The notes below the pieces were generated by a model that saw only the letters and a list, made by a program, of their open reading frames with translations, was not told the DNA's origin and made no database searches. The position numbers and the translations under genes are program-made. From positions 81,540,043 to 81,604,042 of the forward strand of contig OZ022509.1 in assembly GCA_963989385.1 (NCBI GenBank): a stretch of 64,000 nucleotides of DNA, in the 5' to 3' direction. This DNA is from Ctena decussata (Eukaryota; Mollusca; Bivalvia; Lucinida; Lucinidae). Of this stretch, positions 40,955 through 47,970 are shown piece after piece (within the stretch, counting starts at the first letter, position 1; each line of letters starts with the position of its first letter).

Positions 40955-41108
40955 AGAGAATGGACTCCCAAGCAAGCATTTCCTCTACAGCCAGCACTGA
41001 ATCCAGGATACATAAAGCGCAAGAGAGTTTATGTCTAGTATGCTTCCAGAGATGGGATCGTGATATGGGCCGCCATGTTGTGAGATGCAAGGAAGCTAAA
41101 AAAGCTAG
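40955..41108 (+). pseudogene. recombinase-SET element: zinc-finger N-terminus
   Basis: ATG at 40960 in a good context (GAGAATGG), just after a possible acceptor. The translation starts MDSQASISSTASTES. It then has LCLVCFQRWDRDMGRHVVRC, a C-x2-C-x9-H-x3-C-like finger, and a basic KEAKKARR run. The frame ends at a TAG at about 41121, while the downstream frame takes over from 41109, so a frameshift separates them. Probably a DNA-binding finger of the element's protein. Confidence 0.55.
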
Positions 41109-41946
41109 AAGACGAAGCAGCTAGAAAAAGATTGGGTGTTAACAACGGCAAAGTTTTTAGAACTGCTTGTTCAAATGTTGGCCCCAGCATGTTTCTCAGC
41201 CTTTTTGAAATACAAAAAAAGAGAAAATGGTACTCCCATTACGCGGTTTGCGAGGTACTTCGATCTTTTGGACGCTCTGCAATTCCTGAGAAATATGATA
41301 GTACATTTGTTCGGAGACCAGTGTACAACACTCTTACAGACAGAAACTTTATAAAAAAAACTCCAGGAGGAAGATGAGAGAGAAGAAGAAGAAGAGTTTC
41401 GACGGCATGAGGCGAGGCCCCTACAAGAACGACGGGCAGATGTAACAATTTCTGAGCCTCATGAAGATATTGTACCGTTTCAGCCCTTACAAGACGACCT
41501 TCAAGAAGACTCGAATGTCTTTGACTCGCCAATTGTGCGCAACAAGGTGAGAGGGCGGAAAAGAAGTGCAATTGATTCAGACGAAGAGGAACAACCAGGA
41601 CCTAGTTGGCAAAATGAGGAGGAAATGGAGTTTCCTTCTCATCTTGTCAACCCTAGTTGCCAACATGAGGAGGAAATAGAGTTTCCTTCTCATCTTGTCA
41701 ACCCTAGTTGCCAACATGAGGAGGAAATGGAGTTTGCTTCTCATCTTGCCAACCCTAGTCGGCAACATTAGTAGGAAATGGGGTTTCCTTCTCATCTTGC
41801 CAACAAAAGAAAGACGCCATTTCACGGCAGGAGTGCAGCCAAGAAGAGTAGAGCAAGGAAAGATCCAGAGACGGATGTAGGACCAACAACTGCGGATGAT
41901 CATGACACTGCACCTGGGAAAGCTAAAAGGGTGCTGCGTTTTAAAG
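41109..41946 (+). pseudogene. recombinase-SET element: acidic exon with internal repeats
   Basis: One frame runs from 41109 to a donor at 41946 (TTTAAAG|GTAAAC). It is broken by TAA at 41352-41354 and by TAG-TAG at about 41769-41774. Parts: a helical segment (TTAKFLELLVQMLAPACF), an acidic run (EEDEREEEEEF), a basic RGRKRSAIDSDEEE patch resembling a nuclear localisation signal, 3.5 copies of a 17-residue repeat (EEEMEFPSHLVNPSCQH), and another basic segment. The paired TAG comes from G-to-T changes in a repeat unit that reads GAGGAG elsewhere. The exon ends one base into a codon (phase 1). Confidence 0.6.
41607..41815 (+). repeat. 51-bp in-frame coding minisatellite
   Basis: About 3.5 units of GAGGAGGAAATGGAGTTTCC + TTCTCATCTTGTCAACCCTAG + TTG(C/G)CAACAT. 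The length is a multiple of three, so it adds 17 residues per unit. Confidence 0.9.
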
Positions 41947-42044
41947 GTAAACGTTATTTATGTGTCTCTCATAGATTCTATACACAATAATGATCACTTA
42001 AAGTCCATTCCATGATTTCGCATTTATTATGTTTTGTTTAGAAA

Positions 42045-42305
42045 GGCACTGTAGTCGAGTGGCTCGGTTATTGTGCAGAAAGTCACCGGGAGGTCGTGAG
42101 TTCGCGGCCCACAGTCGCCATCCGACGACTGGAAAATTCTCTCTGTCAACCCAGCATTGAATGGGTACCTTTTTCGAATCAAGGAAGGATAAGACAGCGA
42201 AAGGAGAAAGATGGGCTCCACTTTTCATCACCTGTGTCTAAAATACAGTGGGTCTGTAACCCCCAATGCTCCTACGGCTATTAGGCAATGGGAAACATTT
42301 ACTTT
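42045..42305 (+). mobile_element. SINE-3 copy in intron
   Basis: Full-length relative of 23495-23745: GGCACTGTAGTCGAGTGGCTC, GTCGTGAGTTCGCGG, CCATCCGACGACTGG, CTCTCTGTCAACCCAGCA, GATGGGCTCCACTTTTCATC. Confidence 0.88.
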
Positions 42306-42400
42306 TATATGCTTTGTTTAATTGTGTTATGCTGTCGCATTATATGGTGTTTGATTTCGAAAAATAAATCTAAAAACGATATTTTATTTTATACTTATAG

Positions 42401-42463
42401 ATAATACTACTGGAAATGATGATGAAGAGGACCAAGCAAGAGCTGATGTGGCTAATAAAGCCG
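42401..42463 (+). pseudogene. acidic exon, copy 1 (donor lost)
   Basis: 63 nt after acceptor ATACTTATAG, coding for NTTGNDDEEDQARADVANKA. Its 3' junction reads CCG|TTAAGT where copy 2 reads CCG|GTAAGT, so the donor GT is destroyed. Confidence 0.7.
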
Positions 42464-42776
42464 TTAAGTTACCATGATGTCTAATATAAAAATAAAAAAA
42501 AATGAGTCCTTTCAAGAGCATCTCTCTGTCAGCTCAGCACTAAATTTTCGGATCAAGGAAGGATAATACAGCAAAAGGAAAAAGGTGGGCTCCGCCTTTC
42601 ATCACCTGTGTCCAAAATACAGTAGTTCTCTAACCCCAAATGACCGTACGGCTATTAGGCTATGGGAAACATTTACCTTTTTGTGCTTTGTTTAATTGTG
42701 TTATGCTGTCGCATTATATGGTGTTTGATTCTGAAATTACAACTCTTAAAATGAGATTTTATTTTTATACTTATAG

Positions 42777-42839
42777 ATAATACCACTGGAAATGATGATG
42801 AAGAGGATCAGGCAAGAGCTGATGTGGCTAATGAAGCCG
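42777..42839 (+). pseudogene. acidic exon, copy 2 (sites intact)
   Basis: Acceptor ATACTTATAG and donor GCCG|GTAAGTT are both good. The 63 nt are in phase 1 on both sides: the upstream G plus AT makes GAT. Codes for 21 acidic residues (NTTGNDDEEDQARADVANEA). Confidence 0.7.
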
Positions 42840-42893
42840 GTAAGTTACCATGATGTCTAATAAAAATTAAAAAAAAACGAGTCGCTTCAAGAG

Positions 42894-43383
42894 CATGTGC
42901 AACCCACATGTTTATTATGTTTTAAGCAAACTTTTTTTATATAGAGTCCTTTATTTCCTTTGTTTTATACATGGCAAACTGATTAATATTGGCGGTGTTA
43001 TTAATAAGATAATATGGGTTAGTAAGTTTGATAAATACAGTCATTTCCTTAATCAGATACTAGTGAGTTTATTGGTTAGTTATTTGGTTTTCTAGTTAGC
43101 CAAGTATTTTCACAGTTAATTACTTTTCTTGATTAGCTCCATAACGTCCCATTTGTTGAGAAAGGTACTTAAACCTTCTTTATTTTGAAAGCCATTGGCA
43201 ACTTTCTCTGCTAACCGGACGATAACTGGTCATTTGGTTAGTTAATATCTTGGCTAGACATTAAATAATGTGAGTTAGTAGTTATGGACCTCCCATAGTA
43301 GAAGCGACCTATTTTGTATGGTAGTTTGTTACCAAGTACAATTTTAGTGTGTTAATATTTCTTCCTTTTTTCAAACAACACAG
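42894..43383 (+). other. intron of the recombinase-SET element
   Basis: AT-rich, with repeated TTAGTTA words; ends in ...AACACAG at 43383. Confidence 0.5.
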
Positions 43384-43431
43384 CTGCAAGTGATCCTGGA
43401 GAAGAGGGGGAAGAAACTGTTACTGATGAAT
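43384..43431 (+). pseudogene. acidic exon
   Basis: 48 nt, acceptor AACACAG, donor GATGAAT|GTAAGT. Codes for AASDPGEEGEETVTDE in phase 1 at both ends, consistent with the exons on either side. Confidence 0.65.
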
Positions 43432-43844: not shown

Positions 43845-45050
43845 ATATGGACATGTTACAAGATGAGGATGATCAAATGACTTCGAAAAACAGGTCAATT
43901 ATAATGCAGGAATAAAGGGTATTTTGACAACACTTGGATGGTATAAAATTCCAAAGCAGTGGATCCAGAGTCAAGTTTTTAAAGAATTTTGGGATTGGTA
44001 TGTAAGACGAGGGAAGCCAGAGGCAACAAGGAAGAACAACGTAAGAAATGTGATCAAATTACTTTATAAAATGTCGAAGGGTACAAGAAAGGAATATTCC
44101 TATGATATCATAACCGAGAAAAACTTCCACGAGGTAGTACAGTCCCTGACTGAAGCTGGAGTTAACAACCAGACTATTTATAACTACTATAAATCACTCG
44201 TTCACTTTATTAACTTCGACAAACAAAGGCATCTGAAACTAAGAACCCCAGAAGGAGACAATAACGCAAAATCCCTGGAAATAGAGTTCAACGACATCAA
44301 GGAGATCGGAGCAAGCTTGCAGGTCATAAGTACGGAGCAGAGGAAAAAAGGCAAATTACTCGCCAAAGACCCACCGACCCCATTTGAAGTGACCGCCGTC
44401 ATGAGAAGTGAAGCCGGCCGACTTGTAGACAAACACCTGACGGCAGCAGAAAACGGAATTACGCTGAACCGGGACCAGACAGCACTAGTGAACAGATTTT
44501 TAGTATGTCACATTCTTTTAGACTTAGGGAATCGCTCGTCTTCAGCTGAAGGACTAACAGTAGATCACGTAAAACATGCGTTTCAACATAATCGAGTTAC
44601 ATACAAAGGCACCGAATTCGTTTGCATCAATTCAGATGACCACAAAACAGGGGAAAGTTACATAGCGCGAATAGTTTTAGAGGGACAAAGTTTAGATTTT
44701 TACGAGCGTTACGCAAAATTTGTAAGACCAGAAATTGTTAGCCGGACATTTAGCCTTTCTAGAGCCTTTTTTCTTCAGCATGATGGAGGACCTTTTAATA
44801 AAATTTCGGAAGCCCCAGTGAAACTGCAAAGAGAGTTTAACTGTGAAGAGATATGCAATGGAATGGCAAGGAATTCATACGAAACATACTCACAAGGATG
44901 CAGCCAGGAATTTCAGAAGGACATTCTGACTTTCTTTGTCATTCATTATCAACAAGGGACAAGCACTACAAAAAAGTTTAAAATGAGAAAGCCGTCGGTA
45001 TGTGCTACGATATGCGGCAAATGATAAAGTACTTTACCGCACGTGACGTT
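43845..45050 (+). pseudogene. Crypton-like tyrosine recombinase domain
   Basis: The exon starts after ATCATTTGCAG with MDMLQDEDDQ. After a one-base frame change near 43870-43900 it stays open to 45024. The first 120 residues look like a core-binding domain (KIPKQWIQSQVFKEFWDWYV, EATRKNNVRNVIKLLYKM). The catalytic half has Arg-I in LDLGNRSSSAEGLT (codon 44533), Lys in SDDHKTGESYIA (44644), Arg-II in NGMARNSYETY (44869), and His in FFVIHYQQG (44944). The tyrosine expected about 8 residues later reads TTKKF in this frame. The frame one base over reads DKHYKKV (Tyr codon 44967), then continues as MIKYFTARDVNRYP. Recombinases of this kind cut and join DNA through that tyrosine. The copy is broken but recent. 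Assignment as Crypton-like is by motif and host type; a DIRS relative is the alternative. Confidence 0.75.
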
Positions 45051-45740
45051 AACAGATATCCAGCGACATTTTCACAGACCACAGAAGCCATGGAAGAGGA
45101 CACAGCGACACAACGAAGGAAAACCGTGGAGGAGGAGCAAACTACATCAAATCAAATACACATCCAAGATCTAGGAGTCGAAAGAACAACTACCGACACG
45201 CCAAGGCCTGTAAGAAGGACAGAATCAAAACAAACCCGTACCCCACGAAAAAGAAGCCAGTTGCCTAGCCCACTGAGAGGCACACACGGCAGTCCTCTTA
45301 GTGTTCATGAAAAAGCAGATATTATCATAAAATGGATTAAGGAAACACAGGGAACCATAGCCGATGCAAAAATAACAAAAGCTGAAATTATGAACCACTT
45401 CAATGTAACTAGAGATGATGCCAGTTTCAATCACACGATTAGAAGGGTAAGGCACTTACAGACACAAGCGAGAGAGGATGCCGTAGCAAGAAAATTTCTT
45501 ATCCGACAGGCGAAGAGAAAGGGAATTAAAGTTTGCCAATTGGACACAGGGTCACTGGACCCTTTCACAAAAGAGGACATCCAGGCATATGGAAGAACCA
45601 CCAGCAACCCAGAAGGATGGGGAATGATCGTACCCAGGACCGTTTCCAACAAGATGGTAGGACTGCTCCATAAACATAAAGCGGAAGACAACAACGTAGA
45701 CGATGAAACACTATTACAAAGGATAGAGGACCAACAATAG
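45000..45740 (+). pseudogene. recombinase-SET element: middle region
   Basis: Open frame of 246 codons continuing the recombinase. A basic, proline-rich linker (RPVRRTESKQTRTPRKRSQL) leads to a helical domain: LSVHEKADIIIKWIKETQG, AEIMNHFNVTRDDASFNHTI and RRVRHLQTQAREDAVARKFL. It looks like a DNA-binding helix bundle, but I recognise no named family. The frame closes at TAG 45738-45740. The SET frame is already open from 45727, so one small frameshift separates them. Confidence 0.65.
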
Positions 45741-46193
45741 CGCAACATACACATTAAGGAAACAGGAGTATCAAATAAAAGGTAAAGGATTATTCAGCGG
45801 AATGCATAAAATCAACCGAGGAACAATTGTGTGCGATTATCACGGTAACGATGTTACCAGAGCAGAAGGAGAAAAAAGACTTAAAAAATACAAGCATCCA
45901 GACTGTAATTATTTAATGTTTTACAAAGCCAAAGAAGGACCAACCGGAAAAAGATGTATCGACGCCTGCAAGAAGTGTAAATGTCACACCGAAACAGAGT
46001 TTTGTAAAATGCCCGGGAGAATGGCCAACCATCTACGTGATTCACAGGCGAAACTACGTTTACAGGCAAGGGGAATTGGTAACAGTTGCCATGTTTTTTA
46101 ATTGCCAAAAAAGATATACAGCCGGGAACGGAATTAACTTTTGATTATGGAATTCGAAAAGATGAAGACGGCAACAGGTTAGACTGGGCATAA
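45727..46193 (+). pseudogene. SET lysine methyltransferase domain, KMT5A-like
   Basis: Reading starts in one frame with KGKGLFS, then NRGTIVCDYHGND, NYLMFYKAKEGPTGKRCIDA and GRMANH (SET consensus GRLINHS). It passes to another frame at about 46085-46100 with FLIAKKDIQPGTELTFDYG (consensus ending (F/Y)DYG), and stops LDWA-TAA at 46191-46193. These are the cofactor-binding and catalytic blocks of SET domains in order. The DYHG and single-domain layout resemble KMT5A (H4K20 monomethylase). A C-x-C-rich insertion (CKKCKCHTETEFC) sits between CIDA and GRMANH. The NH and FDYG residues are kept, but the frame breaks make this copy inactive. It lies in the same strand and order as the recombinase with no intervening spacer. 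Confidence 0.82.
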
Positions 46194-46222
46194 CAGGACA
46201 GATATCATATTATGTCACTAAA

Positions 46223-47780
46223 CCAATTTTCCTGAGAGCTTTTTGTTCCATTTCCCCTCCAAATGCGCCTTGCTGCTTTCTTATCCTTACGACCTTTCTC
46301 TCCCAAATAGCCCGCGCACCAGATACACAAAATTCCTTGACGCATCATCCACTTGTTTTCTCTTAGCTTCCGATTTCAAATCTGTTTCTTTAGCACGCTC
46401 TTCCCTAGTCATATCATGCCTGATACCAATTTACCTGAAAACTCTCTTTTTATCTCTATATTATGCCTGATACCAATTTACCTGAAAGCTCTCTTTTCAT
46501 CTATTTTATTCTCTTAGCATCCTGTTTGAAATCTGTTTCTTTAACACGCTCTTCCCTCGTCATATTATGTCTGATACCAATCTTCCTGAAAGCTCTCTTT
46601 TCATCTATTTTGTTCGCTTAGCATCCTATTTCAAATCTGTTTTTAGCACGCTCTTCCCTAGTCATATCATGCCTGATACCAATTTTCCTGAAAGCTCTCT
46701 TTTCATCTCTATATTATGTCTGATATCAATTTACCTGAAAGGTCTCTTTTCATCGATTTTATTCTCTTAGCATCCTGTTTCAAATTTGTTTCTTTAGCAC
46801 GTTCCTCCCTTGTCATATCATGTCAAATACCAATTTTCCTGAAAGTTCTGTTTCATCTCTCCTCAAACTGCACATTGCTTTTTTCTTACCCTCACCACCT
46901 TTTTCTCCCAAGACAGCCCACGCACCAGATACAAAAAAAAATCCGTGACGCATCATCCTCTTGTTTTTTTTAGCTTTCTGTTTCAAATCTGTTTCTTTAG
47001 CACGCTCCTCCCTTGTCATATCATGTCTGATAACAATTTTCCTGAAAGCTCTTTTTCATCTCTGTTATTTTCTTTGCTTCCGGTTTCAAATCTGTTTCTT
47101 TAGCACGCTCTTCCCTAGTCATATCATGTCTGATAGCAATTTTCCTGAAAGTTTTTTTTTCTCCTCAAGCTGCACATTGCTTTTTTCTTATCCTCACCAA
47201 CTTTCATTCCCAAGACAGCTCGCGCACCATTTACGTAAATAAATTCCTTCACGCATCATCCTCTTGTGTTTTTAGCTTCCTGTTTCAAATATGTTTCTTA
47301 AGCACGTTCCTCCCTTGTCATAGCATGTCCAATACCAATTTTCCTGAAAGCTCTCTTTTCATCTCTATATTATGTCTGATACCAATTTACCTGAAAGCTC
47401 TCTTTTCATCTGTTTTATTCTCTTGGCATCCTGTTTCAAATCTGTTTCTTCAGCACGCTCCTCCCTTGTCATATTATGTCTGATACCAATGTACCTGAAA
47501 GCTCTCTTTTCATTTATTTTATTCTCTTAGCATCCTGTTTCAAATCTGTTTCTTCAGCACGCTCCTCCCTTGTCATATTATGTCTGATACCAATGTACCT
47601 GAAAGCTCTCTTTTCATCTATTTTATTCTCTTAGCATCCTGTTTCAGATCTGTTTCTTCAGCACGCTCCTCCCTTGTCATATTATGTCTGATACCAAATA
47701 TCTGAAAGCTCTCTTTTCATCTCTATATTATGGCTGATACCAATGTACCTGAAATCTCTCGTTTCATCTATTTTATTCTC
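46223..47780. repeat. minisatellite array, left part (~104-bp basic unit)
   Basis: Units contain CACGCTCCTCCCTTGTCATA, TCTGATACCAATTT(A/T)CCTGAA, AGCTCTCTTTTCATCT, and CATCCTGTTTCAAATCTGTT. A longer variant adds CCAAGACAGCCCGCGCACC and TTGACGCATCATCCTCTTG. The 104-bp spacing is not a multiple of three. The array resumes at 54196 beyond an inserted element. Confidence 0.9.
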
Positions 47781-47970
47781 TTATAGTAGGGTGACTTTGG
47801 CCAGAAAATATGCATATTTCATAGGGTAGGTGGTCATAAAAATACTACAAGCAATGTTATATACCAAAATGTTTGTCATATCCCAAAGTTTGTAAAACAG
47901 CCGGGATCCATTGCGTGACTTTGGTGCGAACCGAGAAATCCAAGATGGCGTCACGAAATGGCCGCTGTTC

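Follow-up and report, generated by a model that had tools for sequence, protein, structure and literature searches.

A decayed tyrosine recombinase–SET gene in the bivalve Ctena decussata, read as a member of an old family probably carried by mobile DNA in animals

A stretch of 64,000 nucleotides of the Ctena decussata genome was analysed (contig OZ022509.1, positions 81,540,043 to 81,604,042 of the forward strand; hereafter the window). Between positions 40960 and 46193 it carries what we read as a dead, intron-bearing gene copy whose single long protein would have comprised a C2HC zinc finger, a tyrosine recombinase (YR), a basic linker and a KMT5A-like SET domain, belonging to an old YR-SET family carried by mobile DNA in animals; the probability of this joint reading of gene and family was put at about 0.68. 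The fusion of YR and SET is real, as single frames cross the joints in the sister copy L002 and in relatives. The window copy itself is dead and cannot act. The features are as follows, in window coordinates, with the exon model being a by-eye reading of the sequence and not transcript-based.

40960..41946, forward strand: first coding exon found, frames broken, starting MDSQASISSTASTESR, with a GT donor at 41947 (translation)
42401..42463, forward strand: small acidic exon, first tandem copy (DNTTGNDDEEDQARADVANKA), donor altered relative to the second copy
42777..42839, forward strand: small acidic exon, second tandem copy, with acceptor and GTAAGT donor
43384..43431, forward strand: small acidic exon AASDPGEEGEETVTDE, acceptor ACAG, donor GTAAGT
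43845..46193, forward strand: last exon with YR, basic linker and SET, its frames broken by frameshifts and one stop; its end is the natural stop of the family (DWA and stop in L002)
43873..45021, forward strand: YR frame with SAM-like N-terminal part, first Arg, Lys and second Arg, the true C-terminal end lying in another frame (translation, relative P0002)
44937..44978, forward strand: YR C-terminal end with the late His (44940-44942) and Tyr (44967-44969), in frame in L002 and L004
44982..45740, forward strand: basic linker frame from YR to SET, whose counterpart in L002 aligns to the database protein P0001
45727..46101, forward strand: first SET blocks KGKGLFS, CDYHG, CIDACKKCKCH and GRMANH (translation, Pfam)
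46104..46193, forward strand: SET C-terminal end (IQPGTELTFDYGIRKDEDGNRLDWA, stop) in a different frame, start approximate (translation, L002 frame)

Translation of the last exon gives a decayed YR followed by a basic linker and then by a SET domain resembling that of KMT5A. The YR frame at 43873-45021 contains the first Arg in LGNRSS, the Lys in DDHKTG and the second Arg in MARNSYET, and the late His and Tyr (CHSLSTRDKHYKK, Tyr codon at 44967-44969) are found one frame over, directly followed by a stop at 44979-44981. The SET end, FDYGIRKDEDGNRLDWA with the stop terminating at 46193, is in a separate frame from the earlier SET blocks. Translation thus confirmed the motifs which the original prediction, made from the letters alone, had named on the forward strand, including the out-of-frame Tyr; the extent it had given, 43845 to 46193, held for the last exon and not for the gene start, since upstream exons begin at 40960. 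Because the frames are broken, single-frame Pfam scores in the window were weak (SET, E = 0.0013; Phage_int_SAM_4, E = 0.0044; both under the cut-off); for the corresponding region of L002, Pfam SET reached E = 5.1e-12. Right after the stop of the gene, a degenerate 47/104-bp tandem array occupies window positions 46206-47783, and the array was also seen in the copy on contig C11 and in one copy on C14.

The genome searched (1.66 Gb, 245 contigs) holds five further copies of the window gene, near-identical at 97%, one of them a fragment. In L002, the C-terminal end of YR with its late His and Tyr, the linker and SET as far as its stop are encoded by one unbroken frame of 487 amino acids (aa). 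The earlier proposal of one ancestral YR-SET polypeptide is borne out by this frame, by the database relatives and by the intact 1102-aa frame described below, in all of which the joints are crossed without a break. None of the four copies with listed frames (window, L002, L003, L004) is unbroken across the whole last exon, and the C13 and C2 matches of the window family contain internal stops. Variable sites in the 487-aa frame were distributed 26/26/43 over the three codon positions (one frame, six related copies), a mild trace of constraint before decay. The C11 copy carries about 2 kb inserted in its SET region (L004:3694-5032) with two frames of 195 and 251 aa, which we take to resemble a Penelope-type reverse transcriptase.

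Upstream of 43845, the gene extends through a zinc-finger exon and small acidic exons at 40960-43431. The C2HC zinc finger CLVCFQRWDRDMGRHVVRC at 41032-41088 lies in the exon 40960..41946, which also encodes an acidic stretch with 51-bp coding repeats (EEEMEFPSHLVNPSCQH, window 41601-41804), and a counterpart of the finger (CPNC...HMRRCC) is present near the N-terminal end of the intact 1102-aa frame. The acidic exon copies at 42401-42463 and 42777-42839 are part of a 374-bp tandem duplication. Splice signals are plausible at the upstream exons, except for the altered donor of the first duplicated acidic exon. Every intron in the exon model splits a codon after its first base, so that small exons can double or drop out with the frame kept.

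Outside this genome, YR and SET are united in a single chain in three proteins from the database, P0001, P0003 and P0004. P0001 (558 aa) is 32% identical to the 487-aa frame of L002 over 98% of its length, and a profile built from these two found P0003 (616 aa, from a metagenome), P0004 and P0005. P0004 is a protein of 651 aa from the fish Lampris incognitus (uncharacterised LOC130131646) in which YR precedes SET, as in P0003; its match is carried by the SET half (44% identity over 27%), the YR half being weaker (E = 8e-8 pairwise against P0001) with catalytic residues kept. P0005 is Hydra KMT5A and contains SET alone. P0002 is 58% identical to the window YR frame, and its model folds as a tyrosine recombinase. 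Viral contig scans with single-protein queries, of close-relative reach, and one genome-contig scan gave no confirmed relative in viruses or prokaryotes, only pattern matches, and an NCBIfam scan returned only models far under the cut-off, one of them a SET-type bacterial effector.

Five YR-SET lineages were compared, namely P0001, P0003, P0004, the 1102-aa frame and the window family. Predicted YR models matched Xer/Cre recombinases in structure comparison. Wherever the sites are readable, all five lineages retain the YR residues, which in order are Arg, Lys, Arg, late His and Tyr: P0003, P0004 and the 1102-aa frame have all five sites, P0001 has the four from Lys onwards, and in the window family the L004 frame shows the first three and the L002 frame the last three. 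The SET blocks CDYHG, GRLINH and DYG are kept in P0001, P0003 and P0004, and the SET of the window family has MANH in its NH motif.

The KMT5A-like nature of the SET domain, as originally proposed, was upheld by solved-structure comparison, in which the best matches were KMT5A or CpSET8 for three queries, and by a Foldseek search of the model, which returned SETD8; the fold model of P0004 (mean predicted local distance difference test score (pLDDT) of 52.5) gave usable matches from its SET part only. YR-SET SET domains are 32-40% identical to Hydra KMT5A and contain, after CIDA and just before GRLINH, a CxCH insert (5/5 lineages, 0/1 KMT5A, that of Hydra), at the position of which the KMT5A chains of the solved-structure comparison show a gap. 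The shared insert argues that the SET domain may have been taken up once, a point which small trees do not prove. The phylogeny against KMT5A suggested with the original prediction gave a small SET tree in which the 1102-aa frame and Hydra KMT5A group together with a support of 0.65, leaving a single capture unproven; the trees hold five and six sequences and are suggestive only.

Intact single-frame copies, which the original prediction had proposed to look for, were found in the same genome in addition to the single-chain proteins P0001, P0003 and P0004. Among the 41 matches listed in a genome search with P0001, eight on eight contigs are equal in score and have open frames of 1089-1107 aa without stops. 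One of these (L039) was read and contains C2HC finger, YR and SET in a single frame of 1102 aa, the other seven being known by coordinates and identity only. Over the 6.5 kb compared, identity among the eight copies is 99-100%; together with their open frames of about 1.1 kaa, this points to recent spread and makes live activity plausible. Further open frames were seen by match only: one of 1192 aa at C14:20785187 matches P0001 over both YR and SET parts, and others with SET or YR-SET matches lie at C2:10554505 (1348 aa) and C12:21507818 (664 aa). Numerous further places match a 5' stretch on the reverse strand of L039 (query 48-923) at 76-87%, frequently with an inverted partner close by, and this stretch is probably a separate dispersed element.

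The sharing between copies of the eight-copy family was followed outwards by spaced probe pairs. For the copies on C2 and C4, 7/10 pairs matched at 98.5-100% (best alignment each) from 11136000 to 11173299, i.e., over 37 kb; array-length shifts can explain the three misses (11126000, 11096000 and 11202500). A left edge near 11127617 (L060:818), placed from one C5 match at 89% and hence in a single copy only, would bring the shared stretch to about 46 kb. A 41-bp satellite fills much of its left part (L060:1276-9200 and L062:1-4117; C2:11.128-11.140 Mb), and the length of this array seems to vary between copies. A comparison of L060:1-1500 with L061 and L064 for terminal repeats, a weak test with the right edge not located, yielded one match of 232 bp, which belongs to a dispersed repeat, a weaker second match inside the same repeat and otherwise matches of at most 74 bp. 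No frame of at least 150 aa was present in L060 and L061 and none of at least 130 aa in L062-L064, save one satellite frame. No cargo genes were seen among frames of at least 75 aa in the five pieces, judged by eye without domain search after removal of satellite frames, and spliced cargo is possible.

More divergent relatives were fetched at five loci. At two of them (C12:36.75 Mb and C5:60.0 Mb), decayed YR, linker and SET follow in the order of the window; two (C14:75.27 and C14:75.49 Mb) show YR only within the fetched stretch, and C5:50.38 Mb gave no protein match. The locus at C14:75.49 Mb (L010:1432-2574) has a YR exon open for 380 aa that is 77% identical to P0002; both frames stop at the same residue, ahead of His and Tyr, which suggests an exon end. 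In the decayed YR-SET at C5:60.0 Mb, a stretch coding for NPEGWGMIV is repeated at least nine times (L036:4261-5477), with a spacing of 53 bp between some of the repeats; it looks as though part of the linker had expanded into a minisatellite.

The reading as a family carried by mobile DNA would imply the following mechanism. YR would cut and rejoin DNA via its Tyr, which would mobilise the element. Binding to the element or to chromatin would be the part of the zinc finger and linker, and SET, by analogy with KMT5A, might methylate a histone lysine (H4K20) beside the bound DNA. The benefit could be that the chromatin of the element is kept open for expression and excision, or that the insertion site is prepared. 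The window copy would have been duplicated along with its flanks.

Several observations weigh against this reading. The C11, C13 and C14 relatives of the window copy share kilobases of flank beyond the gene, with small rearrangements, and three of the five near-full copies (C12, C11 and C13) lie at most about 170 kb from a contig end; these long shared flanks and contig-end positions make segmental duplication near chromosome ends, and not insertion of a bounded element, the apparent route by which the window family spread. Neither element ends nor target-site duplications nor an empty site were found for the window family or the eight-copy family. In the eight-copy family, identity runs to the 6.5-kb limits and in two copies beyond, and for this reason interchromosomal segmental duplication could also account for it. 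The YR-only branch of L010 and P0002 is without the catalytic Lys (DHEA, DKEV), and no SET lies beside L010 within the fetched flank. The His of the HxxR motif, which is the H of the Crypton R-H-R-Y tetrad, is absent from 5/5 lineages, the residue three before the second Arg being D, T, N, N and G, and the 1102-aa frame has Cys for the His of the NH(S) motif and NYG for DYG; because of these changes, the activity of either half may be altered. Telomere targeting, an idea arising from the contig-end copies, was rejected, as no run of at least three TTAGGG was present in the window or the five loci checked.

A bolder account is possible but doubtful, namely that the intact copies represent a giant, recently active animal element of tens of kb whose YR brings its own KMT5A-like methyltransferase to write a mark at the donor or target site, with the window as an older dead branch. 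In the parts of the shared 37-46 kb stretch that were read, no long coding frame other than YR-SET was recognised.

It is unlikely, though conceivable, that the family is a domesticated host gene family, in which an old YR-SET fusion serves as a chromatin regulator, the YR half only binds DNA and copies arise by segmental duplication. The introns and small 5' exons, the long shared flanks and contig-end positions, the annotation of P0004 as an ordinary gene in the fish, and the open 380-aa YR exon at C14:75.49 Mb, which like its relative P0002 is without the catalytic Lys, all fit such a history. It is opposed by the retention of second Arg, late His and Tyr in five YR-SET lineages, of Lys in those reaching the site and of the first Arg in the four lineages other than P0001, whereas domesticated Crypton genes lost Tyr and second Arg, as described in parts of PMC3212892; eight nearly identical copies on eight contigs would also be unusual for a host gene.

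It was considered improbable that the intact copies belong to a large integrated virus which uses a tyrosine recombinase. Long near-identical stretches do occur in several places, and crustacean genomes harbour endogenous nimaviruses whose tyrosine recombinases carry a zinc-binding domain, according to PMC10871703; the main text of that paper, however, is without the terms 'SET domain' and 'methyltransferase', the five further pieces of the C2 copy (L060-L064) hold no long frames apart from the satellite frame, and the viral contig scans, within their close-relative reach, gave no relative.

A chance neighbourhood, i.e., a retrocopy of KMT5A or another SET gene beside a decayed recombinase, would fit the separate frames of the window and the two divergent loci with YR without SET in the fetched stretch, but it can practically be dismissed, together with the idea that both domains always lie in separate genes (two alternatives raised by the original prediction itself), as it is contradicted by single-chain relatives in distant lineages, by other copies and species in which the frame crosses the joints unbroken, by the same YR-linker-SET order at two further divergent loci and by the CxCH insert, which the five YR-SET lineages have in common and Hydra KMT5A lacks.

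If intact copies of the YR-SET family are active, one protein would both recombine DNA and mark histones. How mobile DNA deals with the chromatin of its host during insertion, a question of long standing, would then become testable in a single purified molecule. The family could also explain some 'KMT5A-like' or uncharacterised SET proteins of fish and invertebrates as products of mobile elements and not host enzymes.

Among known systems, the YR part belongs with the tyrosine recombinase superfamily by its Xer/Cre-like fold and its Arg, Lys, Arg, late His and Tyr (with the exception of L010/P0002, without Lys), and the SET part is of KMT5A type, being closest to KMT5A/SET8 in solved-structure matches and Foldseek. 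The H4K20 monomethyltransferase KMT5A/SETD8, although among the best structure and fold matches, differs in having neither the CxCH insert between CIDA and GRLINH nor an attached YR, and both features speak against a host KMT5A orthologue. A DIRS-like retroelement was rejected, as Pfam scans of the YR and SET frames gave no reverse transcriptase match and, in L060-L064, no long frame apart from the satellite frame lies beside the 1102-aa frame. The giant Starship transposons of fungi, going by partial descriptions, are alike in having a YR in a possibly very long element; their captains are marked by DUF3435, for which the same scans gave no match at E up to 1, and the animal host and the lack of cargo genes seen here set the present family further apart. 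Transposases of HarbingerS and MuDR elements are of the DDE class; here the mobility enzyme is a tyrosine recombinase, and no DDE domain was found in the Pfam scans. SETMAR of primates, in the descriptions available in excerpt, likewise joins SET to a transposon recombinase, but is one host gene from a mariner insertion, whereas a YR and a multi-lineage family are found here.

The label 'Crypton-type' given in the original prediction was not borne out, as the HxxR His is missing; the zinc finger and SET are further differences. Cryptons, which occur in animals, share a eukaryotic YR as the only mobility enzyme recognised (PMC3212892, in part), and the main text of that source contains no occurrence of 'SET domain' or 'methyltransferase'. 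The uptake of SET genes by Harbinger and MuDR transposons of oomycetes (Phytophthora) is reported in passages of PMC12730594, which cite Kojima and Jurka 2014 for HarbingerS and SET-bearing MuDR elements. These are transposon lineages with a captured SET histone methyltransferase gene, like YR-SET, and are set apart, by their description there, as belonging to oomycetes, whereas the present YR and SET share a single chain and come from an animal genome and a fish. The original remark that no described family was known goes too far for SET capture as such. As to the pairing itself, no paper joining YR to SET was among the matches listed, which were often only some of all matches (10/286 in one case) and were judged by titles and the beginnings of abstracts, with most subscription papers outside the search.
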